DNA of 41,221 nucleotides from Verrucomicrobiia bacterium (lineage in GTDB: Bacteria; Verrucomicrobiota; Verrucomicrobiia; Verrucomicrobiales; DEV007): positions 1 to 41,221 of the forward strand of contig JAUIAH010000049.1 of NCBI GenBank assembly GCA_030425385.1. Reading direction: 5' to 3'. Under the pieces are notes generated by a model. That model did no database searches. It worked only from the letters and a program-made list of their open reading frames with translations, and had not been told where the DNA came from. A program made the translations under genes and the position numbers. Below, one piece after another: positions 27,297 through 41,133 of this stretch (positions are counted from its first letter, which is position 1; every line of letters starts with the position of its first letter).

Positions 27297-30200
27297 TCAT
27301 GGCAGCGTCACTTCCACATGGCTAAAACAGCGAGGCGTTCCAGGAGCGCAAATTTCATCAATCGAGACGCGTTCCCACTGATCATCAATGGGTGTAACGG
27401 TGACAGTTCCCGTCATCGGCACAAAGGAATCGTTGTCGGGACTCTCTGATTTCTTAGGGGTATAAATCAAGCCACTCCCGCGACGCCGGACAAACTCCAC
27501 ATGAAAAATCGTTTCCCCCTCAGAACCGGTGCGAATCTCATGCCCCGGCAAGCCAGAGGTCCCGCCGAGTGTCATCGTAGATGGATCTGCCATTGATAAG
27601 TCCATATTGAATGCATACTTTAGCAGATTGGGCACGCCGTCATCGAACGGCACGGCCGAGGGTAGTGTGTCTTCACTGGAAAGCCCCGCTTCAGCGATTG
27701 CGCCTTCCATTGCCGATCTAGAAGTGATCCCTGTGCCCGATAGCGCGATTTCAAAGGGATTCTCATCCGCGTCATTGCTCGAGATCAACAATGTGGCTTC
27801 GTGTCCACCCAAATTCGTGGGCTGAAACGACACGTCGATCACCGCTTGCTGTAGAGGCTGGAGAAGAGAAGGCAGGCTGGTATCACTCGCCGAGAATCCC
27901 GAAGCATCATTGCCCGTGAGGGAGACAGATAGATCTCGAAGGTCGGAACCACCCGTATTACGGATCACAAACGACTTTACGGAGTTTCCTGCATTGATCA
28001 CGGCGTCTGGAAACATTTGAGAGCCCTCTGCATCAATCAACGCGCCACCATCTTCGCTGTCCCTTACGGTGATCTCTGGTGGAGGCAATGGAGCCTCCGT
28101 TTGCTCAATCGCCACGCCGCTGAGAAAGACGCCAGCACTGCCCGCGTTTCCCTGCAATTCAATCTGAACGGTTCCCGATTGCGTTGACGTTACGGGGATT
28201 CCGTAAGATTCGAGCGGTTCAGATGAAGATCCCAATTCCTCATTGATGATTAACTGGCGGTTGGCAGTTGAAGAAACCACCTGTGAAAACGACGTAGGAT
28301 CATTGTCTCCGCCTCCTGTGATCAAAACTTCCTGATCAATCGCTAGCCCAAAATTCTGTGATGCCAACAAATAGACAAGGTGCTCAGTTTCAGGTTCTAG
28401 ACCTTCCCAGGTTAAAATGAGAGGCACAGACGTGGTATTATGCAAGAATACGTGATCAAGAGAGTCAAGAGGGGGATCATGCTGAGGAACCGTCCCTCCA
28501 ATGAGTGGTGCCGTCGCTCCATTTCCCCATTGAAAATGGCCAGACCTATGGATCGCTAACGAAACATTGCTAGCGTCGCCTCCCTCCATCGTAAGGTCCT
28601 CATACGTCTTCGAGCCAGAATTATCCCAATTGCTCACGGCGTTCCAGTGTTGGGGAATCGACTCTGCATCGAGGCTGAATCCAACCCCTACAAACGGCAA
28701 ACGGTCATTGTCGTTCACTTTGGCTCTCATGGCACTGATCAACATCCCCTCGGGATACGAACTGCTTGAACTGGCGGTGATCGCATGGGTGATGATGCCA
28801 AATTCGGTTCCGCCGATGATCTCGTCATCAATAGCTCTAACGTAAAGGGTTTGAGCCGTCGTGGACGTGAAAGCCATCTCGACCGTAGGGGTGAAATCGA
28901 CACCATCCAAGCTCAATTCTATCTTGTCGTCTGATACTGCCTGGATCGTCACCGACTCTCCAGGATCCGTGTTGAGCGCGATCTCATAGGTGTCGATGTA
29001 GAAATCGCTTCCAGGCTCGGACCCTTCGCTAATCAGAAGAGGATCATTAAGCCCCAAGAGCTTCACTCCGGGCTGGTTGGGATCGCAGACAATCGCAAAA
29101 GATTCATCAGAAATATCAAAGAAGACATTGCCATGTCCCTGGATCTTAAGCCGACAATTGGTCTCGGAAATATTCGGTAAAGTGATTGCTACCGTCCCAT
29201 CATTGACTGTCGTCGTCAAACGATAAGAAAAATGGAGTCCACCGTCGATCGATAGAAAGATATCTACCTCGGGGGTATCGATCCCGTTGCCATCCGTTCC
29301 TGCCACATCCCACGTCAGCGTTTGGATGCTTCCTCCATCATAAGTGGCCATCGTGTTCATGGAGGTGATCTCAAAAGCTCGCCCCGTATCGACAACGTCA
29401 AGGACAACATCTGCCCATGCGGTGGCCCCGCCTCCCGGATAATCATCACGCGCGGTCGTTCGGAAGGTTAGCTTCCTAGTATTTGTTGGAAGGAGTTCGC
29501 CTGCGCTCGTAGTGCCATCCAACAGGTTGCCAAGGGCTGGGAATGTTCGTTGGGGGTTCGGTGACGGCGGAAGAGAACGAAAGAGGGGGCCTTTGCCGTC
29601 GTCGGCAAGCGGTAGGTTCATCGCCTCCTCTGCGACATCCATTTGTTCCCAGGTATAGACAAGAGGATCACCATTCGCATCCATACCTTCAGCCGTGAGC
29701 TCAAAAGGAGTTCTTGCTGGAATTGAAAAGCCTGCGGGCGTCACGACGACGGGCGGGGTATTAGCAGAGGCTCTCGTTGAGAACGGGATCGCCAACGTGT
29801 TTCGTAAGTGTTCCATGCTTAAAGCATGGAAATAGAGATCACGATCCGGTTGAAGATCGGCACTCTCGCACGACCCCGCATAACTCATGAGTGTTGTTCC
29901 ACTCCCAGGTTCCACCGCAGTCTCGGCCCATCGTTCATCTCCACAGAAGGATTCTGTCGCATTGTAGGTGTGCTCCGCGCCTAACTGATGGGCTAATTCA
30001 TGAACGAACAAGCCAATGAAGGCCTCATTCTTTGCGGAAGGATCTGGAGCCTCAGTCACTCCTCGTCCCTTGGTGGCATCACTGCTGCCGCCACCTATCG
30101 TCGAGAATCCGGCACCAGCATCCACGTGTCCCAACACATGGCCTATGTCATAGTTCTCATTGCCTACGATAGCATCTAAAGTCGCCTGATTCTCCGCAAG

Positions 30201-32600
30201 CTGTGTGGCAAGGTCGCCTGGCGTGAAGGGATCGGAATCGGGATCCGTGTAAATGATCGATTCCAGTGTGGTATCCTCAATTAGCTGCAATTCAATCGCT
30301 GCGTCCCGTAGATAAACTCTGTTCGTCGCAGCGACTATCTCCTTCATAGCCGCCAGAGCCTCAGCTTTCCCACCGTGATAATCTGTGAACTCTGCAGTAG
30401 CGGCAAGTGCCAGCCTGTATGCTTTTATCGTTTGTGTAGGAAAGCTGTCGATAATCTCTATGGTCCGATGGACCTCCCTTGCAACATTGCCCGAAGAATC
30501 AATTGCATTGTAGGTTAAAGTATATGACCCAACCTGTTCTGTGTTCAAAATGTCCCCGCCAATGATTAGGTCAACAGCTTCGTCGCATAGATCACGTGCG
30601 GATACGGTTTCCGTGAATTGATCTCCTTTGATAAGAGTTAAAGTGCTAGGGCCATTGAGGCTAATTGTTGGAGGTAATGTATCGATGACTTCATAGGTTC
30701 TAGTAACGCTTGCAGTGTTTCCAGAGTTGTCAGTAACAGTGTATGTGATAGGGTAGATTCCGAGAATCTTGGGATTAACAGGTGGCCCAATCATAGATAT
30801 CTGGGAGGAAAGGTCTCCATCAGTATGGTCAAATGCAGTTGCGTCCGGATGCGTGAAATCATCGCCGCATTCTATTACGTTGTATGCATTGTCTCGTATG
30901 GATAGGATTGGGATATCTGTAAAGATTGCGATGAGCTCGAAATTGTCTACCATCTGAATAGTTGTTGATACTTCATTTGGACTCTCAATAGGACCATCTT
31001 CCCATCCAATAAAACGATATCCTGAATTGGGGGAGGCTGATATTGGAACGTCGACACCGTTGATGTATCTTCCCGATCCTGATGTTACACCCGCCCCTGT
31101 AGGAGAGGATCTGATTGTAAGGTTCCATGTTGTTAATGGATGGCGCCTCAAATCTTCCCCGCCGCTATTGTCGGAAAAATATATCAACTCGCCGTTCAAA
31201 CATGCGATCCTTAGCGGCTCCATGGCACCGAGGCGCAAAGTTCCATTGGTGGTACCACTAGTTGTCCAAAGCCCTGAACCTAAAGTATCACTGAGTCCTC
31301 GGAAAAAGAGGTTTCCATAGCACATTGTCGGTTGATCAAAGAATGAAGAGAATATTCCAGGTGAGGCATCTAAGATCAATTGAGTTCCTGTGGCTGTCCC
31401 GTCGCTCTTCCACAATTCATTGCCATGAATGCCATCGTTGGCTGGAAATATAAGCTGATTGCGGAGCGATGCCATCCACGACGGGTCAGATCCATTGTTT
31501 CCTTCATAGATATCCTTTACCAATTCTGTCTGATCCGGTGTTCCATCTGTTCGCCAAAGCTCTGAGCCATGCAGATCTGAATCTGCCCAGAAATAGACTC
31601 GATCGCCCATCTTGGCGAAGGGGCCGAAACGAGAGTTGAAAGGGCCGTCCTTGAAGTCGTTTAGTAGCCATGTGCCTGCGGTCGAGCCATCGCTGCGCCA
31701 AAGCTCACGGCCATGCAACGAATCCTCAGCGACAAATATAATTGAACCATTGAAGTCCATCGTGATCGAAACATTCGACCACGTGACTCCTTGATTGATA
31801 TCTTTCACTAATGCCGTCCCGGTTGTTGTTCCGTCAGTCTTCCACAGTTCACGGCCATGATTGCCATCATTTGCCTCAAAAAAGAGATTGTTGCCGGATT
31901 TCGTGAAGTGTTGAGGAGCAGAAGAGTTGGGTCCTGGATGAATGTCAAAAAGGATCTGAGTGCCTGTTGGGGTTCCGTCGCTTCTCCAGAGCTCCAAGCC
32001 TGTGGCCTCATCATAGCCCATAAAGACGAGGTAATCTCCGATAGGATGTATTTGTTCAAGGAGGTAGTCGGCGCTGAATTCGCTGACCAGGAAAGTCCCT
32101 GTGTTAGTGCCATCACTCCGATAGAGTCCTTGTTTGCCATTTTGATTGCTCCAGAAGTAAAGAGTATTTCGCCAGTTGATAAAGCTTCCTCCATTCAGAC
32201 TATTTCCTGACGCATCTTCCAAGGGTGATGTTCCCGTCGGTGTTCCGTCGCTTTTCCAGAGTGTGGAATGATCGCCTACGTCTGCATTGAAGAACAAATG
32301 AGCGTTGTATAGGTGAGTATCACCTGCGATATTGAGACCGTCGAACTCAGTGGGGCCAATGTCCTTTACTAGGATGGTACCTGCTTCGGTGCCGTCGGAC
32401 CGCCAAAGCTCCCTTCCGGATTCATTGCTGTAACCTGGGAAAAGCAATGTGCCATTTAATTCTTTTATGAAGGATCCAACAGTGGGTTGGTCAGGCTTTG
32501 GAAACTGGTGGATTGTCTGGGTGTGTCCGATTGAGATTAGAAAGAGAGAGCCTATTGCGTTCAATATAATGGCCTGAAGTTGTTTGGATCGTTCAATCAT
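27297..32600 (-). CDS. Giant secreted metalloprotease with ELWxSDGT repeats
   Basis: 1767 aa from ATG 32600, which gives the signal peptide MIERSKQLQAIILNAIGSLF, then LISIGHTQ. Residues of about 40-480 contain nine repeats of about 48 residues around ELW(R/K)(S/T)DGTxxGT, likely propeller blades. Next come an InlB-type B-repeat (SPNSGYRFIGWEDGP) and two Ig-like 'TD.SGN' domains (YTVTDNSGNTASVTRTYEV; YNAIDSSGNVAREV). The catalytic domain of reprolysin/metzincin type has HELAHQLGAEH with a Met-turn (TLMSYAGSC). Further modules include a Calx-beta-like region, a choice-of-anchor D-type domain and a C-terminal segment ending CFSHVEVTLP. It is probably extracellular or surface-attached and degrades or processes proteins. 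The 5' part is visibly more AT-rich than the left half of the window, hinting at transfer. Confidence 0.88.
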   Translation of the reverse strand: MIERSKQLQAIILNAIGSLFLISIGHTQTIHQFPKPDQPTVGSFIKELNGTLLFPGYSNESGRELWRSDGTEAGTILVKDIGPTEFDGLNIAGDTHLYNAHLFFNADVGDHSTLWKSDGTPTGTSPLEDASGNSLNGGSFINWRNTLYFWSNQNGKQGLYRSDGTNTGTFLVSEFSADYLLEQIHPIGDYLVFMGYDEATGLELWRSDGTPTGTQILFDIHPGPNSSAPQHFTKSGNNLFFEANDGNHGRELWKTDGTTTGTALVKDINQGVTWSNVSITMDFNGSIIFVAEDSLHGRELWRSDGSTAGTWLLNDFKDGPFNSRFGPFAKMGDRVYFWADSDLHGSELWRTDGTPDQTELVKDIYEGNNGSDPSWMASLRNQLIFPANDGIHGNELWKSDGTATGTQLILDASPGIFSSFFDQPTMCYGNLFFRGLSDTLGSGLWTTSGTTNGTLRLGAMEPLRIACLNGELIYFSDNSGGEDLRRHPLTTWNLTIRSSPTGAGVTSGSGRYINGVDVPISASPNSGYRFIGWEDGPIESPNEVSTTIQMVDNFELIAIFTDIPILSIRDNAYNVIECGDDFTHPDATAFDHTDGDLSSQISMIGPPVNPKILGIYPITYTVTDNSGNTASVTRTYEVIDTLPPTISLNGPSTLTLIKGDQFTETVSARDLCDEAVDLIIGGDILNTEQVGSYTLTYNAIDSSGNVAREVHRTIEIIDSFPTQTIKAYRLALAATAEFTDYHGGKAEALAAMKEIVAATNRVYLRDAAIELQLIEDTTLESIIYTDPDSDPFTPGDLATQLAENQATLDAIVGNENYDIGHVLGHVDAGAGFSTIGGGSSDATKGRGVTEAPDPSAKNEAFIGLFVHELAHQLGAEHTYNATESFCGDERWAETAVEPGSGTTLMSYAGSCESADLQPDRDLYFHALSMEHLRNTLAIPFSTRASANTPPVVVTPAGFSIPARTPFELTAEGMDANGDPLVYTWEQMDVAEEAMNLPLADDGKGPLFRSLPPSPNPQRTFPALGNLLDGTTSAGELLPTNTRKLTFRTTARDDYPGGGATAWADVVLDVVDTGRAFEITSMNTMATYDGGSIQTLTWDVAGTDGNGIDTPEVDIFLSIDGGLHFSYRLTTTVNDGTVAITLPNISETNCRLKIQGHGNVFFDISDESFAIVCDPNQPGVKLLGLNDPLLISEGSEPGSDFYIDTYEIALNTDPGESVTIQAVSDDKIELSLDGVDFTPTVEMAFTSTTAQTLYVRAIDDEIIGGTEFGIITHAITASSSSSYPEGMLISAMRAKVNDNDRLPFVGVGFSLDAESIPQHWNAVSNWDNSGSKTYEDLTMEGGDASNVSLAIHRSGHFQWGNGATAPLIGGTVPQHDPPLDSLDHVFLHNTTSVPLILTWEGLEPETEHLVYLLASQNFGLAIDQEVLITGGGDNDPTSFSQVVSSTANRQLIINEELGSSSEPLESYGIPVTSTQSGTVQIELQGNAGSAGVFLSGVAIEQTEAPLPPPEITVRDSEDGGALIDAEGSQMFPDAVINAGNSVKSFVIRNTGGSDLRDLSVSLTGNDASGFSASDTSLPSLLQPLQQAVIDVSFQPTNLGGHEATLLISSNDADENPFEIALSGTGITSRSAMEGAIAEAGLSSEDTLPSAVPFDDGVPNLLKYAFNMDLSMADPSTMTLGGTSGLPGHEIRTGSEGETIFHVEFVRRRGSGLIYTPKKSESPDNDSFVPMTGTVTVTPIDDQWERVSIDEICAPGTPRCFSHVEVTLP

Positions 32601-33321
32601 AGGTGCAATTAAAATCATAACTGGAAATGTGTAGTTCCAAAGTCTGCGAATATATATTCGTCGCCGGAGGTTGTATTAGTTTTAGGTGTAAAACTCTACC
32701 TCTACTTATTCAGGAGGAGCCTCTCCTTATTATTGATTTCAGTAGCAGTATTCAGTTTATTCGGGTGTATTTGCGAGGTTGTGGAATTTGCAAGCAAGAA
32801 TCGTATTTCTTGTTGAGGGGGACTGCAGCGTGGTAGCGGATTGCGGGTCCTTGGCTCGAATTAAGCTCGTATTGGGACAATGTGAAAGTTTTTATTGTGT
32901 TTTGGATCATGACGGCGAGTGAGCACTCCGCACAATAAATATTATGGTAAGATTGCAAGATACAGTTTCTACATTCACTATGGCCAGTGGTCGAGGCTTC
33001 TCGGAATCTTCGCCACATGATACTCGGGGAATCTCTTAGCTACCTAAGGCATGTTCACTTTCCCGTGACAAAGGGCTGGAAATAGAGAGGATTGAGGGAT
33101 GCGCTAAACTTCATAGGTTAGGGTAGATCGTCGATGGTCGCACTTGGTGACCTCTGGAACGTCGGCAGGGAGACCGGATAAACGAATAGGGGATTTCACT
33201 ACCCGAGAAGCGAGTCATGTGTTGATTTTTGGGGCCTTCCTTTAATCTAGTATATTCCCCTAGGTGTGCTTCCGGGCGGTTGCCTGAAGTCGTAATTTGA
33301 GAGTTTCGCTACCCCTCCACT
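32601..33321. other. AT-rich 0.7 kb intergenic region between divergent giant genes
   Basis: No convincing gene; short open frames on both strands lack signal peptides, family motifs and plausible start sites. Base composition is clearly AT-richer than the left half of the window. It should hold both promoters for the metalloprotease (leftward) and the PEP-CTERM polyprotein (rightward). Nearest the latter, TTGATT at 33222 and TAGTAT or TATATT at 33248-33256 resemble promoter boxes but with poor spacing. The candidate operator at 33187 lies just upstream of these. Confidence 0.5.
33187..33202. promoter_or_regulatory. Candidate operator upstream of the PEP-CTERM polyprotein gene
   Basis: TAGGGGATTTCACTAC shares its layout with GTAAGGGTTTCCCCTAC at 13914 and TAGGGGAATCCCT at 26296. 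It is located about 120-135 bases upstream of ATG 33322 and just before a possible -35 box. The symmetry is imperfect (CACTA instead of CCCTA), so confidence is low. Confidence 0.3.
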
Positions 33322-36300
33322 ATGGCTTATTTTTGCAGACTGCTTGTGGCGATCGGGATGTTTACACTTGGAAATGCTCAAGGAGCGATTGTCGTGACGA
33401 CGATGACTAATCTGGACGGGACCTTTACCTACTCCTACGAAGTCGACAATACTGCGGGGACCTTTGATGTCTTCAGTTGGTCATTGGAATTGGCCGTGCC
33501 TGCTGATGACATTGATTGGAAGCCGTTGGATAAGGGACAGGGCGGCGATGTGGTGGTTCCGAGCGGCGATATGCTTTCATCGAGCGATGACTGGGGTGCG
33601 GATCGGGGAATCGCGGTGGTCGAACTCTGGGCGCAGGATTTCTTTGCCGTGGATGCGGCGGGTGGCGGGGACGTCGTGATTGGTTCGTCTTTGGATGGGT
33701 TCGAGGTGACCAGTGCGCTGCCTCCAGGTCCAGCGACTTATGTGGAGTATGGGCCTGCGGGGCAGAGTTTAGTAGGATCAACGATAGGGCCCTCGATGAT
33801 TCCTGAGCCGGGTGTTGGAGTGCTGGTCCTTGTGGGCTTGGCTAGTTTGATAGGGACTCGGCGGCGGTCGGTGTTGGGTGTATTGGTGGCGATGCTTGTG
33901 CTGGTGCACCAAGCGGCCTGGGCTGCCCCCGCGGTGCAGTCGTGTGCCTTGAGCCCGTTATCGCCAGGCATGCCTTACACGTTAACCGTTGAGGCGGAGG
34001 AAGCCGTGACGGGCACGGTGGTCGTGGACTATCGGCCGCATGCGCGGGCGCAGGTGCGAGAGGCACTGGTTTTCGAGGGAGCCACGGGAAGTTTGGAAGG
34101 AACGTTGGCTGGTGATCTGGCGTTGGCGGCCGGTGATGTGGTTCGATTCCGTGTGATTCTGCAAGATGTGAACGGTGAACAGACGCGGAAGGTGATCGCG
34201 GGGACGGTGGTCGATGAGGTGGCGGTTCCGTCCGTGGTGGGGCTCACTGAACCAGAAGCGAGAGCGTTGCTTGCCTCGTCAGGGTTGACCACAGGGACGG
34301 TGGCAACAGCAGCGAGTGATTCGGTTCCCGCGGGGGCGGTGATCAGCCAGGCGATTAAGGCTGGTGCCGTTGTCTCTCCGGGGACGGGCATGGGCTTCGT
34401 GGTTTCTGCTGGGCGCGAGATGACCTTGATTCTGCTGAATACGCCTAAGGTTGCTGTAGGAGAGGCTGCGTTGTTAGAAGTGCGGCTGAGTTCACCTGCA
34501 CCCGTGGGTGGGGTGGAGATCGATTTGGCGGCACTGCTAGATGGCGTCGTTGGCCTTGCAGACCCACCAGTGGTCCAATTTCTAGAGGGAGAGGTGGCAC
34601 GCACGGTAGCCGTCGCCGGCATCACGGTGGGAACGTCGGCGGTGGAGGCTTCCGCGGTGGGTTATGCGAGTGCGAGTGTGCTTGTGGAGGTGACTGAAGA
34701 TCGACTCTCCGTGCCAGCGACCTTGGAGGTGGCGTTTGGCTCCACGGTTTCCTTGCCGATTTCCATCTTACCCGAACCTGCGCCAGCAGGCGGGGTGGAG
34801 GTGGAAGTGCTATCGATGAATGAGGCAGTGGTAGGCGTGACGTCGGCCATGGTGACGATCCCTGAGGGACAGACGGCCGTGAACGTCTCCGTGGAAGGGG
34901 TGGGCATTGGCACGACAACGGTTCTGGTTCGGCATCCTGACTATGCCAGTGACACGGTGGAGGTGACTTCCAGCGCGGAGATCAATATTGTGGAGAACTT
35001 TGTGGCCTTTAGTGCCGGGTTTCCTGCCGAGATCACCTTGCGTCTAGAGAATAATGGTAGTCCTGTGGCAGCACCTTCGGGTGGGGTGGTGGTTGATCTG
35101 GAAGTTGGGGATTTAGCCTGCGCTGTCGTTCCGGAGTCAGCCACGATTCCTGAGGGATTGAGCCAGGTTACGGTGCCCGTTCGTGCAGGATCTGGAGGTG
35201 CATTTCCTTGCAATACCACCGTAACCGCTACGCTTCCTGGAGGGCTGCATTCAGATGCTGTTAATGTCAGTGTCAATCCTTCGCCTGTGATTGAGGAGAA
35301 CTCTTCGAATACTCCTCCTCCTGTGGGGGTGGGATTGCATGATCCTCGCTTTCTTCGGCTTTCGGAGAGCAATCACGGTGGAGTCGCTTGGACAGCGACG
35401 GTGAGTGATCCGAGTGTGGCTCTGTTGGCTCCTGACGCATCCACTGTCGGCATGGCAACAGCGACGGGAAGCCTGGACGATGGATTTGATGTGTTCCCTG
35501 TATGGATCCAAGGGCTGACAGAGGGATCAGTCGAAGTGACGGTTTCGGCTCCGGGCTTTGTCAGTATCGTGTTGAATGTTGAAGTGGTGGCGCCGGTGGT
35601 TGGTTTTCTCTTTCTCGGTGAGATGGCTGAGTTCGATCTCTTCGGAGGGAATCGAAACGTTTCTGTGCAGTTAGGAGTGCCGTTTGGCAATGGCGGCGTG
35701 TCACCGCAACGGGTTCAGCCAGTGGGCGACCCCATTGTGGCCAATTTCGGCTCAAGCGACCCTTCGGTTGGGACTTGGCTCATGGATGGTGAGCCGACAA
35801 CGGAAGCCCAACTGACATTTTCCCATGAGGATTTCTCAACGGACAAAGTTACTGTGTTTCAGCCGCTTAATGCTGGGACAACCACGTTGACGATCACCGG
35901 GGATGCCTTGGGGGAATCCCCGAGGTCAACGGTGGTCATGACGGTCGTGGGTTCGAGTTTAACCATAGGGAATCCATTCAACGATCTGGGCAACGGTCTT
36001 CAAGAGCTGATCCAAGTGGCGTTAAGCGCGCCTACCCTCGAGGAGACGATTTTTACTGTTACGAGTGATGATCCTGACGTGTTCGTCATCTCGCCGGATG
36101 CCACGACGGTGGGAGCGGCTGCAGTGGAGATCCCCGTGCTAGCGAGTAGATCAAACTTTTCGTTTTACATGCAGGGACGAGGCGAGGGATCTGCGTCTGT
36201 CTCTGTTAGTGGTGTTGGATACACGGGGAATTCGATCGATCGGACCGTCGTGAAACCGTCGATTCGATTGGATACTCGAGACGGGGTTTTTGGCAATTTG

Positions 36301-37917
36301 AGGTCCAGCGTTGACTTTCTAGAGCCGAATCTGCGCGTGATAGCCAGATTGGCTCCTTCAGCCAGCCGATTTGTCGCCAGTCAGGCGGTGGCTCCGGGGA
36401 CTGGTGGCATCGAGGTCACCGTCTCTAACTCCGAGAGTGCTGTCGCCGAGCTTGTTCGGGCGGGCGCTTCGGGTCAGGAACTGACGGTTACCATTCCTGA
36501 GGGTGAGCTTGAGTCACCGTCTGCGCTTGAGGACGGGGGACTTCAGTTACGTCCTCTTGGTGCTGGGATGACCGTTCTAACAGGATCAGGAATCGGGTTG
36601 AATGCTTCTGAAGACCTCTCGGTTGAAGTGACTGCCCCCCGCCTCGGGTTTGACCGCTTCTTTGGAAACAATCTCGCCCCAACTCGAGTGGGCGCTGGCT
36701 TGCAACAGGCAGTCACTGTGTTCTTGAGTTCTGGCAATCACGGGGGGCGGACCGTCACGCTGACAAGCCAATCGCCCGAGAATGTCTTGGTCTCCCCTGA
36801 CGCGAGCACGGCTGGAGCGGCCACCATCGCGGTCGATGTTGCGGACGGGGTGACGCAGTTTGAGGCGTATATTAACGGCGTAAGTATGCTAGACGAGATC
36901 GTCTTGGTCACGGCGACTACCGAGGGCTTTGAGACTGGCAATCTGGAAGTTGAGGTGGAGCAGGCCTACATCAACGTTTTACTAGTCGGGCGAACGCAAT
37001 CATTAGATCCGCCTCGCGGACTGCACATCGATGTGGGTATCGCGAGGAATCCAGAAGCGCAATTGCATACTGGGAATTGGACACGACAAGCCATCCGGGC
37101 TGGGACGGGTCCTGTGACCTTCGCATTGAGCAACGGTGAACCCACCATCGGCGAGCTCCAGATCTCTGTCGGAGCCGGGCAATCGGTTGACGTCGTGCTG
37201 GATGAAGGTGAGTCCTCTGGATTCGGTCGAGTTGAGTTTGACCCGATTTCTCCTGGGACGACCGTCATCAGGGCGTCGGCTCCAGGATTTCTCCAAGCGC
37301 CGAGTGGGGGATTGGTGATTAGCGTGGAAACGCCGACCATTACGATTGCCGGTGGCTTTGGTTCAATCCAAGTTCCATCGGGGAGTTTTGTTGCGGTGAC
37401 CCCACAATTGAGTGTGTCGACGCACGGAGGTGTGGAAGTGATGCTCACCTCAAGCAATCCCAGCGTCGCTCTGGTGAGTGTGGGAGGCGGAAGCCCAAGC
37501 GAGTCAGCCACCGTGACCTTGGAAGATGGGACGTTCAGCACACCCTCGAATGAAATCGGATTCCGTGTGCATGGCGTCGAAGGGGCCAGTGGACAAGTCG
37601 TCCTGACGGCATCCGTGCCCGGGTTCCTTGATGGGACGAGAGCGGTGGACGTGATCGAGACGGCGGCTCTTGAGGCAGCTGAGCGATTCCCGTTGACACT
37701 GGAGCCGATCGGTAATCTCCGCGAGCAATTCGGCCTTCGATGGCATTCAGACTCTACCCAAAGTTATCTCATCGAGGCAAGCGAACACCTCGATTCTTGG
37801 ATGCTGCTAGGTCGGGTGGAGGGAACTGGAGACGATATTGTCTATCCACTGTCACGAACAGAAATGCCAATACGATTCTTCCGATTGCGAGCCCTCGATC
37901 GTGTAGATCATCAGTAG
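33322..37917 (+). CDS. Giant secreted protein with internal PEP-CTERM signal, second signal peptide, PASTA and Ig-like repeats
   Basis: 1531 aa. Residues 1-21 are a signal peptide (MAYFCRLLVAIGMFTLGNAQ). Residues 22-158 form an exported domain (GTFDVFSWSLELAVP...), followed by a full PEP-CTERM signal: IPEP (160-163), a hydrophobic segment to about 178, then RRR at 180-182. Normally the protein would end here. Instead a second hydrophobic stretch (VLGVLVAMLVLVHQ) and AWAAPA (199-204) follow, with the form of a new signal peptide. A PASTA-like domain (VPSVVGLTEPEARALLASSG, about 304-365) and roughly ten Ig-like repeats come next, several with an 'HGG' turn and 'VALLAPDAST' strand. A C-terminal verrucomicrobial-type domain closes it (YLIEASEHLDSW ... 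FFRLRALD). It is one uninterrupted frame. PEP-CTERM signals are normally cleaved by exosortase; no exosortase is in the window. Confidence 0.85.
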   Translation: MAYFCRLLVAIGMFTLGNAQGAIVVTTMTNLDGTFTYSYEVDNTAGTFDVFSWSLELAVPADDIDWKPLDKGQGGDVVVPSGDMLSSSDDWGADRGIAVVELWAQDFFAVDAAGGGDVVIGSSLDGFEVTSALPPGPATYVEYGPAGQSLVGSTIGPSMIPEPGVGVLVLVGLASLIGTRRRSVLGVLVAMLVLVHQAAWAAPAVQSCALSPLSPGMPYTLTVEAEEAVTGTVVVDYRPHARAQVREALVFEGATGSLEGTLAGDLALAAGDVVRFRVILQDVNGEQTRKVIAGTVVDEVAVPSVVGLTEPEARALLASSGLTTGTVATAASDSVPAGAVISQAIKAGAVVSPGTGMGFVVSAGREMTLILLNTPKVAVGEAALLEVRLSSPAPVGGVEIDLAALLDGVVGLADPPVVQFLEGEVARTVAVAGITVGTSAVEASAVGYASASVLVEVTEDRLSVPATLEVAFGSTVSLPISILPEPAPAGGVEVEVLSMNEAVVGVTSAMVTIPEGQTAVNVSVEGVGIGTTTVLVRHPDYASDTVEVTSSAEINIVENFVAFSAGFPAEITLRLENNGSPVAAPSGGVVVDLEVGDLACAVVPESATIPEGLSQVTVPVRAGSGGAFPCNTTVTATLPGGLHSDAVNVSVNPSPVIEENSSNTPPPVGVGLHDPRFLRLSESNHGGVAWTATVSDPSVALLAPDASTVGMATATGSLDDGFDVFPVWIQGLTEGSVEVTVSAPGFVSIVLNVEVVAPVVGFLFLGEMAEFDLFGGNRNVSVQLGVPFGNGGVSPQRVQPVGDPIVANFGSSDPSVGTWLMDGEPTTEAQLTFSHEDFSTDKVTVFQPLNAGTTTLTITGDALGESPRSTVVMTVVGSSLTIGNPFNDLGNGLQELIQVALSAPTLEETIFTVTSDDPDVFVISPDATTVGAAAVEIPVLASRSNFSFYMQGRGEGSASVSVSGVGYTGNSIDRTVVKPSIRLDTRDGVFGNLRSSVDFLEPNLRVIARLAPSASRFVASQAVAPGTGGIEVTVSNSESAVAELVRAGASGQELTVTIPEGELESPSALEDGGLQLRPLGAGMTVLTGSGIGLNASEDLSVEVTAPRLGFDRFFGNNLAPTRVGAGLQQAVTVFLSSGNHGGRTVTLTSQSPENVLVSPDASTAGAATIAVDVADGVTQFEAYINGVSMLDEIVLVTATTEGFETGNLEVEVEQAYINVLLVGRTQSLDPPRGLHIDVGIARNPEAQLHTGNWTRQAIRAGTGPVTFALSNGEPTIGELQISVGAGQSVDVVLDEGESSGFGRVEFDPISPGTTVIRASAPGFLQAPSGGLVISVETPTITIAGGFGSIQVPSGSFVAVTPQLSVSTHGGVEVMLTSSNPSVALVSVGGGSPSESATVTLEDGTFSTPSNEIGFRVHGVEGASGQVVLTASVPGFLDGTRAVDVIETAALEAAERFPLTLEPIGNLREQFGLRWHSDSTQSYLIEASEHLDSWMLLGRVEGTGDDIVYPLSRTEMPIRFFRLRALDRVDHQ

Positions 37918-37939: not shown

Positions 37940-39802
37940 GTGAAAGACATCTCAAAAGAATATAGAGCTGCAGGAGTTGCTGTCGCTGTGTTTGTTGCAT
38001 GGAGTTGCAATGTGTGGGCTGCTCCTATCGAAATAAGCAATCACAGCTTTGAGACGCCTGCTCTTGGTGCGAATGGCATTTTCTGGACCAATGATCTTCC
38101 TGCAGCAAATGATCCACTGAGTTCTCATTGGAAAGACCCTATGGGCGCAGGTAGTTGGAACCGGTTCGTTGAATACATTGGTGGCTTTGCTTCGGAAGGC
38201 GTGCAGCACCTCGGAGTGGCATCTGGAAGCTACATTTTTCAGAATCTCGGCGTGCCTTTCGAGGCCAATACGACCTATACGTTGACCGTTGGGATAGGCT
38301 ACCGCACTCCGAATTTTTCTGGCGGCGAAAGTTGGTCGGTGATTGGGTTTACCACGCTGGATGCTGAACCGGGATCAGAAGATGATCTCTTGAATGCCAC
38401 TACGACAGATCAGTTGATTCTGTCGGATGACTTTCTTGCTGCGCACCATGTTCGTGTTGATTCGGTGGCTCTCAATCACGCCCGCTTGCGCACCTTTTCC
38501 GATGTCACGCTAACATTGGTTACTGATGGAGAGCCACCGGTTGGGAACATCGTTATTGTTCTTGGCGACGAGGCGTTGGGGCTTCGATCACATTTCGATC
38601 GGGTACGGCTGGAGGCTGTCTCGGCAATTGATCCAGACGGTGATCGGATACCGGGCGAATGGGAGCTGGGGACGGATCGGGGCGTGCCACGTGATCTTGA
38701 TCCAAGCGTTGACGACGGTGGAGAGGATCCTGATGGAGATAGCCTCACAAACTATCAGGAGTTTATAATGGGGACGCACCCTCAATTGGTGGACTCGGAC
38801 AGTGATGGACTCAGCGATGACGTTGAAGCCGCTACAGACCCATTGAACGCTGACACCGATGGGGATACACTTATCGATGGCGATGAGAGCCTTATTTATG
38901 GCACAGATCCAAATGATCCTGATTCCGATGGAGACGGTTTCGAAGACCAGGCAGAAGTGGCCGCAGGTGCCGATCCTTTGACTCCAGAGGCTTTTCCGCA
39001 ATTAAGTCATCGTTTTCAAGTTGGAGTGAACTTTGTTGGTGGGATTGCTGAATCTGTAGGGGCTAAGGTGACTGCCTTGGCTGGAGTGGTCCCCCAGAGG
39101 AACTGGAACAATCTAGAAGGGGGTGCTGGCTCGCCTATTCTTTTGATTGATGCTAACGGATTGCCTTCAATCATGCGAATGAACTGGCAAAGCAATAACC
39201 CTGCGGTTGCTGGTGGCGAGGCAAACGATACTGGGAATTCACAGTTGATGCGGGGGCTTATTATGCCTCGAGGTAGTGGCTCGGGAGCTGACGATTATAT
39301 CGCGGAAGTCACTGTTCGAAACATCGCTTACGCGACTTATGATTTATACGTTTACTGCAATCTCGATCTAAGAAATGATGGAGCGTTAGAGGCCAATGAT
39401 CAAGGGGTTAGCCTCTTTGTGGAACCCTATTCAGGTTCCTATGTGGAAGTGGATTCTAACGGTGATACAGGAAATTATGTGCGCTATAGGAACCTGTCCG
39501 GATCTCGATTGACAGTTGTTGCAAGATCAATCGGGATTACGGGATTTCAGATTGTGGGCAACGGAGTCAATGTCAATAATGCTATTGACTTCACACGAGT
39601 CGACTTTTGTGGTCCTGTTGCTCTGTTGGAATGGGATGGTGGTGAGCCTCCTTTTCAGGTGCAAGCGAGCGACGTTCTACCGCCTGTTTGGAAACCAGTA
39701 TCGGGACTGATATCCGAGCCACAGGCAGTGATACCGATCCCGGGTGGTCGTGATCGCTGGTTATTACGTGTGGTTGAAGGCGGCCCTGTTTTATCCCAAT
39801 AG
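37940..39802 (+). CDS. Secreted thrombospondin type 3 repeat protein
   Basis: 620 aa. The start must be GTG 37940, since the first in-frame ATG is beyond the signal peptide (YRAAGVAVAVFVAWSCNVWA then AP). Residues of about 28-225 form an N-terminal binding-like domain (IEISNHSFETPALG ... YTLTVGIGYRTPNFSGG ... VRLEAVS). Residues 230-355 carry Ca-binding thrombospondin type 3-like repeats (DSDSDGLSDDVEAATDPLNA, DTDGDTLIDGDE, DPNDPDSDGDGFEDQAEVAA). Residues 360-620 form a beta domain unknown to me. It lies 22 bases downstream of the PEP-CTERM polyprotein gene in the same direction, so co-transcription is likely. Exported surface or matrix protein. Confidence 0.82.
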   Translation: MKDISKEYRAAGVAVAVFVAWSCNVWAAPIEISNHSFETPALGANGIFWTNDLPAANDPLSSHWKDPMGAGSWNRFVEYIGGFASEGVQHLGVASGSYIFQNLGVPFEANTTYTLTVGIGYRTPNFSGGESWSVIGFTTLDAEPGSEDDLLNATTTDQLILSDDFLAAHHVRVDSVALNHARLRTFSDVTLTLVTDGEPPVGNIVIVLGDEALGLRSHFDRVRLEAVSAIDPDGDRIPGEWELGTDRGVPRDLDPSVDDGGEDPDGDSLTNYQEFIMGTHPQLVDSDSDGLSDDVEAATDPLNADTDGDTLIDGDESLIYGTDPNDPDSDGDGFEDQAEVAAGADPLTPEAFPQLSHRFQVGVNFVGGIAESVGAKVTALAGVVPQRNWNNLEGGAGSPILLIDANGLPSIMRMNWQSNNPAVAGGEANDTGNSQLMRGLIMPRGSGSGADDYIAEVTVRNIAYATYDLYVYCNLDLRNDGALEANDQGVSLFVEPYSGSYVEVDSNGDTGNYVRYRNLSGSRLTVVARSIGITGFQIVGNGVNVNNAIDFTRVDFCGPVALLEWDGGEPPFQVQASDVLPPVWKPVSGLISEPQAVIPIPGGRDRWLLRVVEGGPVLSQ

Positions 39803-39872: not shown

Positions 39873-40547
39873 ATGGGGGAAGTGATGGTGGGCGCCTTCG
39901 TGGTCTCCGTAGCCAATAGGGAAGAAGTTGCTGATGTCGGACGCTTGCGCTATTGCGCCTACAGGGGCGATGGGATGTTGGTGGTCAATGGTTCAGAGAC
40001 ATTTGTCGATGGCTATGATTGGCGTCCTGGTGTCTTTTCAATGCTCGTGCGTGATGGAGAGCTTCCAGTGGGGACGTTGCGTTTCTCATTGGAGATCGTG
40101 GAGGATGGCGTGTTCACCTATGATAATGCTCCGGAGTTCGGGGTGTTTGCGGATGTGATGCCGGCTGCGATGATGTCAGGACGACAGCGGGTGGCGGTTG
40201 GGGGACGATTTGCCATTGCTCCTGAATGCCGTGATCGGTCGACCGTGGCGTTGCTGCTGATGTTGGCCCAGGTGCGGACCGCTCGTGCGGTGGAAGCGGA
40301 TTGGGGGTTGGCGACGGCTCGGGGGTCGCATCTTCGGTTCTATGAGCGGTTGCTAAAGATGACGGCTTTGGGGGTGCCACGACGCATGCCGGGTCTAGAG
40401 CATGCGTATGATCTGGTTTATTCGGACATGCATCGGAACGGGGAGGCGTGTCTTGCCGGGTTTCCTCGCAAGCTGACCGCCTGGTTTGAAGAAAGGTGTC
40501 CGGATTGGGACGAGGAGGTGCAGCGTCGACTAGCAAACGTCTTGTGA
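39873..40547 (+). CDS. FeeM-like N-acyl amino acid synthase (GNAT/autoinducer-synthase fold)
   Basis: 224 aa. ATG 39873 is used; ATG 39885 has a better-placed GGGGGAAG and is an alternative. The sequence VADVGRLRYCAYRGDGMLVV, then DGYDWRPGVFSMLVRDGELP and VGTLRFSLE, fits the N-acyl amino acid synthase/LuxI group: an 'R..vY' entry, an acidic loop, then 'vG..R' on a strand. VGGRFAIAPECRDRSTVALL is a GNAT-type acyl-donor-binding region. Such enzymes join a fatty acyl chain from acyl-ACP to an amino acid. A related acyltransferase family is known from PEP-CTERM/exosortase genomes. The next gene follows after 13 bases. Confidence 0.72.
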   Translation: MGEVMVGAFVVSVANREEVADVGRLRYCAYRGDGMLVVNGSETFVDGYDWRPGVFSMLVRDGELPVGTLRFSLEIVEDGVFTYDNAPEFGVFADVMPAAMMSGRQRVAVGGRFAIAPECRDRSTVALLLMLAQVRTARAVEADWGLATARGSHLRFYERLLKMTALGVPRRMPGLEHAYDLVYSDMHRNGEACLAGFPRKLTAWFEERCPDWDEEVQRRLANVL

Positions 40548-40560
40548 TGGGGTGATCTTG

Positions 40561-41133
40561 ATGGTGGTCTTCTTGATCATGGCCGTCGGTAATTTCGTGG
40601 CCTTTACGGCGGCTTCGTTTTGGTGGTTCGCTAAAGGCGAATCCTGGCTCAACCAACTGCTTCGAGGACTGTCTCTGGTCGTGTTTGTGTGGTGGATGTG
40701 GGAGGTCGCGGGTGCATTTGCGGTGGGAACGACTTCCCATTCGGTTAGGGTGGCGATCGCGGTGGCGATGCAACTGGGTGTAAGTTTGATCTTCTGCCTG
40801 GCTCTGTGGGCGCTTCCTCGAAGGAAACTTGAGGTGGCGGGAACGGGCGAGGGGCCAAATGTTCTGATTGTGAACGGGATTTATCGCTGGGTTCGCAACC
40901 CGCTCTACCTGGCTTACCTGAGTTATTGGTTGTCTTGGGTGGTGTTGGAGGTTTCCAGTATCTGGCGTTGGTCAGTGTGGGGTCTATTCTTTGCCCTGTA
41001 TCGGCTAGCGATCACGCAGGAGGAGCGTTTTCTGGAGGGGCGGCATGGTGAGAGGTATCGCAGCTATTGCCGGAGTGTGGGGAGGCTGTGGCCACGGTTA
41101 GGAATGGCGCACAATTTAGTTAAGACATCTTAA
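40561..41133 (+). CDS. ICMT/PEMT-like integral membrane methyltransferase
   Basis: 190 aa from ATG 40561, which has GGGG eight bases upstream; GTG 40552 is an alternative. There are four or five membrane segments. The C-terminal part carries the isoprenylcysteine carboxyl methyltransferase-type signature: VNGIYRWVRNPLYLAYLSYW, then ITQEERFLEGRHGERYRSYC. In this family RxxRNPxY and EE...Y...Y contact S-adenosylmethionine. ICMT methylates the free carboxylate of a lipidated cysteine; bacterial relatives have varied lipophilic substrates. Next to an N-acyl amino acid synthase, a lipidated amino acid carboxylate is an attractive substrate (inference). Confidence 0.82.
   Translation: MVVFLIMAVGNFVAFTAASFWWFAKGESWLNQLLRGLSLVVFVWWMWEVAGAFAVGTTSHSVRVAIAVAMQLGVSLIFCLALWALPRRKLEVAGTGEGPNVLIVNGIYRWVRNPLYLAYLSYWLSWVVLEVSSIWRWSVWGLFFALYRLAITQEERFLEGRHGERYRSYCRSVGRLWPRLGMAHNLVKTS

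Follow-up and report, generated by a model that had tools for sequence, protein, structure and literature searches.

A probable in-frame fusion of two export genes in a Verrucomicrobiia genome carries an internal PEP-CTERM-like segment followed by a second signal peptide-like segment

Substrates of the PEP-CTERM/exosortase (EpsH) systems (TIGR02595, PF07589) are built from an N-terminal signal, a variable exported domain, a PEP motif, a hydrophobic helix and an Arg cluster. Cutting of a precursor at an internal signal is known from the cytochrome b/c1 precursor of Bradyrhizobium (fbcH). As regards the position of the PEP-CTERM segment, fewer than 10 residues lie behind the model in 87% of cases, and the very few proteins whose tails are much longer may be non-functional (Haft 2006, PMC1569441).

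The DNA analysed here, referred to below as the window, is a stretch of 41,221 nt from a Verrucomicrobiia bacterium and corresponds to contig C72 (41 kb) of a draft host genome of 8.0 Mb in 74 contigs. Positions 33322-37917 of its forward strand form a single open frame of 1531 codons, the parts of which are given in the following list, where A denotes the N-terminal part and B the part that follows the junction.

33322..37917, + strand: whole fused ORF A-B, 1531 aa
33322..33384, + strand: predicted first signal peptide, limits approximate, MAYFCRLLVAIGMFTLGNAQG (from the sequence and a hydropathy peak at residue 7)
33373..33798, + strand: domain A, body of a small PEP-CTERM protein, residues 18-159 (homology to the A genes of loci L069, L080 and L081)
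33799..33867, + strand: internal PEP-CTERM-like segment (IPEP, hydrophobic helix and RRR), residues 160-182, below the family cut-offs
33832..33834, + strand: candidate internal in-frame start GTG with GGAG 11 nt upstream, relevant to a possible separate translation of B
33859..33924, + strand: second signal peptide-like segment, RRRS-VLGVLVAMLVLV-HQAAWA, residues 180-201, with the RRR in common with the PEP-CTERM-like segment
33928..34224, + strand: Ig-like N-terminal domain of B, residues 203-301 (profile match, model and fold matches)
34219..34386, + strand: PASTA domain, residues 300-355 (Pfam PF03793, E 1.5e-12)
34387..37914, + strand: remainder of B, a long repeat-like extracellular region where the B of the relatives has RTX repeats

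A preliminary description of this locus had placed IPEP at residues 160-163, RRR at 180-182 and AWA-AP at 199-203, and had noted that the frame runs from the PEP-CTERM-like segment into a second hydrophobic stretch without a stop. The sequence bears out these positions, and past RRR 180-182 the frame reads RRRSVLGVLVAMLVLVHQAAWA-AP with no stop codon. The start of the frame is hydrophobic and signal-like, as judged by sequence and hydropathy only, and a helix was predicted at residues 2-14 of this region in a model of low confidence. With hydropathy windows of 11 or 15 residues, both top-scoring segments of the whole protein lie at the junction, whereas with a window of 19 residues the stretch 747-765 outscores them. 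AWA occupies residues 199-201 and is followed by A202-P203, and a cut would be expected after A201. Both flanks of the junction are coding, with a match to the A profile before it and matches to the B profile and to PASTA after it. The downstream part had been described as PASTA and Ig-like repeats; similar stretches do recur by eye, but a single PASTA domain passes and no Ig-like family is over its cut-off.

Several other genes are found around the frame. A gene at 37940-39802 starts 22 nt past the end of the frame and, because of this short gap, may share an operon with it; its product bears a signal and has an HpiC1-like domain along with bacterial TSP3 repeats. Two genes downstream of the frame lies a gene for a FeeM-type N-acyl amino acid synthase (39873-40547; Pfam E 7e-19), followed by one with weak matches to methyltransferases of the isoprenylcysteine/phospholipid kind (40552-41133). 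On the upstream side, the minus strand encodes a protein of 1773 aa in which ELWxxDGT repeats occur together with a reprolysin-like metallopeptidase domain (27297-32618).

The internal segment had been regarded as a complete PEP-CTERM signal. This holds for the order of its elements, as PEP motif, hydrophobic helix and basic cluster follow each other properly in residues 160-182, but its score is under both curated cut-offs: when the first 183 residues were scanned alone, it reached 14.8 bits against PF07589 (cut-off 20.7) and 15.4 against TIGR02595 (cut-off 16), and neither family was listed when the whole 1531-aa protein was scanned. The host genome has five matches to the exosortase family (TIGR02602), two of them over the cut-off. 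Under a lax threshold it also gives 50 PEP-CTERM matches.

The segment is internal, with 1349 residues after residue 182, and its position was compared with that of other PEP-CTERM segments. The controls from the host genome were the 30 of its 50 matches for which loci were available (the other 20 were left out, and the window's own segment is absent from the list), and all 30 end at most 31 residues from the start of the motif. Controls from relatives were 19 frames taken from about the 150 best of 824 PEP-CTERM matches in 57 genomes, comprising all 13 listed frames of at least 400 residues and 6 of those at 337-372 residues; every one of them ends at most 34 residues from the motif start, although they do not amount to 19 independent cases because several are near-identical copies from sister genomes. 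The segment was thus terminal in 49/49 controls, and in a further set of nine weak matches of the A search in class genomes, eight stop right after the basic cluster. Therefore, the internal segment with its 1349 following residues is an exception among the segments examined. The ninth of the weak matches, the PEP-CTERM frame of locus L053 (G121:C204, 1501 on, minus strand of the locus), extends 48 residues past its RR, and no second signal was seen in this extension.

Homologues of A were found in three genomes, G278, G426 and G427 (loci L069, L080 and L081), with 40-43% identity to the window, and residues 18-158 match a profile built from these relatives alone with 105 bits. When the N-terminal part was searched against 384 class genomes, nine matched including the host itself, the one further strong match being that of G278 (47% identical across most of the domain); among 57 relatives, three matched including the host, the other two weakly. 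A two-row A profile matched three of 146 genomes among the relatives of G278, all from one genus, g74 (the three genomes above), and gave no match in two other g74 genomes. With the A profile, 3/386 genomes of the order matched (the host and two weak matches) and 1/208 of the phylum (the host only), and a search of genome contigs with it returned one relative, the contig of G278. Four candidates were rejected: L003 and L004, the weak matches to the N-terminal part among the 57 relatives, are other PEP-CTERM proteins with normal ends, and L088 and L089, the two weak order-wide matches of the A profile, are also PEP-CTERM proteins with normal ends.

In all three relatives A is a protein complete in itself, 190-198 residues long, and its PEP-CTERM-like tail is followed by TGA. 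The tails read VPEG, VPEA and LPDG, each with a helix and Arg behind it, and under the cut-offs one matches VPDSG-CTERM and one PEP-CTERM; this variation may point to exosortases of different classes or to signals in decay. For A, structure prediction gave a poor model (mean pLDDT 37). It had been proposed earlier that the window frame is an evolved design giving two products in a 1:1 ratio, and homologues ending at the Arg cluster had been named as the finding that would speak against it. All three strong homologues stop after the basic cluster, 7-10 residues past it, so that such a design is unsupported as a conserved one.

Behind the TGA of A, a B gene adjoins in the same strand and frame in all three relatives. 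Each B has its own signal peptide and then an Ig-like domain homologous to residues 203-301 of the window (3/3), with a modest 20-27% identity over the aligned stretch. For B, a profile made from the sequences of just the three relatives, with the signal peptides excluded, matched window residues 203-301 with 20.0 bits for the whole protein (E 5.6e-5) and 17.3 for the best stretch, compared to 8.8 bits for the best of 2000 shuffles, and this match sits directly behind AWA-A. The model of the first domain of B in the window (mean pLDDT 81) shows a sandwich of seven strands preceded by a signal helix, and its fold matches were mostly Ig/FnIII-like, none of them with E <0.001. Among 286 class genomes the B profile matched three, namely the host, G278 and one weak case. 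After this domain, the B genes of the relatives encode RTX calcium-binding repeats (in G427 the contig ends before the gene does), while B in the window continues with PASTA and repeat-like sequence instead. The AWA-AP site is identical in the B gene of G426. Two matches in G205 (L070), obtained in the search with the first 251 residues of the C-terminal part, were rejected because they belong to another kind of protein with PASTA-like similarity.

The A-B stretches of the three relatives are as follows, with the stop of A being TGA and B in frame in each of them.

L069, 6732-9389: A and B genes
L080, 5945-2733: A and B genes
L081, 6169-8361: A and B genes

The spacers from the TGA to B measure 36 nt in G278, 30 nt in G426 (to a TTG; 39 nt to an ATG) and 18 nt in G427 (to the first ATG; 63 nt to the next). 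In G426 the junction reads RRRQQTSTLS-stop-(28 codons)-LVGWIIALCWSASAWA-APSIQ, and in the window it reads RRRSVLGVLVAMLVLVHQAAWA-APAVQ, so about 30-35 linker codons, including the stop of A and the start of B, are missing from the latter, and RRR is common to both signals. As three relatives have A and B as separate adjacent genes in the same frame, the window frame very probably represents a lineage-specific in-frame fusion of two once-adjacent export genes. The three relatives come from one genus and are therefore not independent witnesses. A fusion, rather than a splitting, is the direction we infer, since the terminal signals of both halves fit the ends of proteins and the fused form was found in one genome only. 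The preliminary description had offered the loss of a stop between neighbouring genes as an alternative; the joining of two genes agrees with the three relatives, but it looks as if the whole linker was lost rather than a single stop.

No other example of the fused form was obtained with the whole protein in genome contigs (52 pattern-matching stretches, none a relative), with the N-terminal part in 57 relatives and 384 class genomes, with the C-terminal part in the 57 relatives or with its first 251 residues in the 384 class genomes. Profile searches of the order, the phylum and the class gave no strong match to either half outside the host, G278, G426 and G427, and the three other genomes searched from the window's own genus were all without a match to either half. 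With the fusion in one genome, and no match to either half in the three same-genus genomes, there is no basis for calling the fused form conserved.

An export-signal-like start in the same frame behind the stop was also seen at two unrelated PEP-CTERM genes, the downstream start being a signal peptide in L075 and a prepilin-type leader in L049. Same-frame neighbours are thus no rarity, and fusions of this kind need just a deletion. Programmed read-through of the relatives' TGA could produce a comparable fusion, and it was considered since A ends in TGA in each of the three and B is in frame; it was set aside because the spacers look unconserved, TGA is a frequent stop in G+C-rich genomes and in-frame neighbours are also present in L049 and L075.

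For the fused chain we propose the following sequence of events. The stop, the spacer and the start of the B signal would have been lost, leaving a single RRR to act both as the end of the A tail and as the positive n-region of the B signal. The chain would be exported through its first signal, the PEP-CTERM helix would act as a stop-transfer with the RRR left in the cytoplasm, and the second helix would re-insert into the membrane. Signal peptidase I would then cut after A201 and free B, whereas A would stay on its membrane helix or pass to an exosortase. On the sequence, we give the cut by signal peptidase after A201 about an even chance; a cut of the internal tail by exosortase appears less likely than that and is doubtful, since the motif does not reach the cut-offs and signals of this type are found at the end of the protein in almost every case. 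Formation of a hairpin and cutting of the fused chain would be plausible. Taken together, an A-B fusion exported as a hairpin with release of B by signal peptidase I is the best overall explanation, and one in which we have moderate confidence. It seems rather improbable that the hairpin chain, with one Arg cluster for both signals, is cut at both of them to give anchored A and released B in a fixed ratio, that is, that the internal PEP-CTERM is a working one.

Other readings of the frame have to be weighed against this explanation. An error of assembly or base calling that joins two genes could be suspected in a draft genome, and the halves would likewise be parted if the serine codon at 33868-33870 were a stop; however, it is the entire linker of the relatives that is missing, not the stop alone, and a GTG start at 33871 would give B a signal without a positive n-region, unlike that of all three relatives, so we consider an error very unlikely. 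If the frame were instead a true precursor of two products, cleaved by exosortase at the internal PEP and at AWA by signal peptidase so as to yield A and B 1:1, the ordered PEP, helix and Arg cluster, the good second signal with its tight RRRS turn and the exosortases of the genome would all fit. This is nevertheless unlikely, given the motif score below the cut-offs, the terminal position of the other PEP-CTERM segments (49/49 and 8/9) and the existence of the homologues as two separate genes; the family account cited above also says, where it treats much longer tails, that these may be non-functional (Haft 2006, PMC1569441).

Fusion of the genes could also leave B to be translated from an internal start within the PEP-CTERM helix (GTG 33832 or TTG 33847), as an in-frame overlap, with the long chain made in minor amounts or as a by-product. 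Initiation at GTG 33832, which has GGAG 11 nt upstream, would yield a signal peptide whose h-region is preceded by RRR, and B is made separately in the relatives. Against this, no stop lies between the frames and ribosomes from 33322 must hence read through; Shine-Dalgarno matches of four bases often arise by chance and other codons of the stretch have them, while TTG 33847 has none, nor has A's own start. We regard such an overlap as rather unlikely. That the fused chain remains uncut, its helices forming a membrane hairpin anchor, or that it is a failing fusion heading to decay, is conceivable but on the whole doubted: it would agree with the single genome, the weak motif and the lack of any conservation by which to gauge selection, but the frame is open over 1531 codons with a conserved A domain and the AWA-AP site is the same as in G426.

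On the preferred explanation of a fusion, the frame points to a route by which two exported proteins may become one gene, with the end signal of the first merged with the start signal of the second. It is also a natural test of whether exosortase needs the PEP-CTERM at the very C-terminus. Few relatives of A and B are known otherwise; the two are likely partners, given that one genus keeps the pair adjacent and that they form one gene in the window.

Among open-licence papers, no description was found of a second signal peptide behind a PEP-CTERM inside a protein, and none was found for exosortase with a polyprotein, for a sorting signal with a second signal peptide or for a bacterial polyprotein with a signal peptide. 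Like PEP-CTERM/exosortase substrates, the window frame has in its first part an exported domain, a PEP motif, a hydrophobic helix and an Arg cluster, here behind a predicted N-terminal signal, and its genome has exosortase-family genes and many PEP-CTERM proteins as such systems do; it differs in that its segment, under the cut-offs in score, is followed by 1349 more residues instead of lying at the C-terminus. A close counterpart is the A-B pair of g74 (G278, G426 and G427), which shares the order, strand, frame and homologous A and B first domain, and which differs in its division into two genes by a TGA and a spacer, in A tails of VPEG, VPEA and LPDG versus PEP in the window, and in the RTX repeats of B versus PASTA and repeat-like sequence. 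The fbcH precursor resembles the window frame in that a single chain holds two products and, between them, an internal signal peptide as the processing site (a candidate one in the window), but its proteins are unrelated, it is conserved and it is not known to have a C-terminal sorting signal in its first half. The components as such are known, whereas the joint of an internal PEP-CTERM and a second signal is, as far as we have seen, new.
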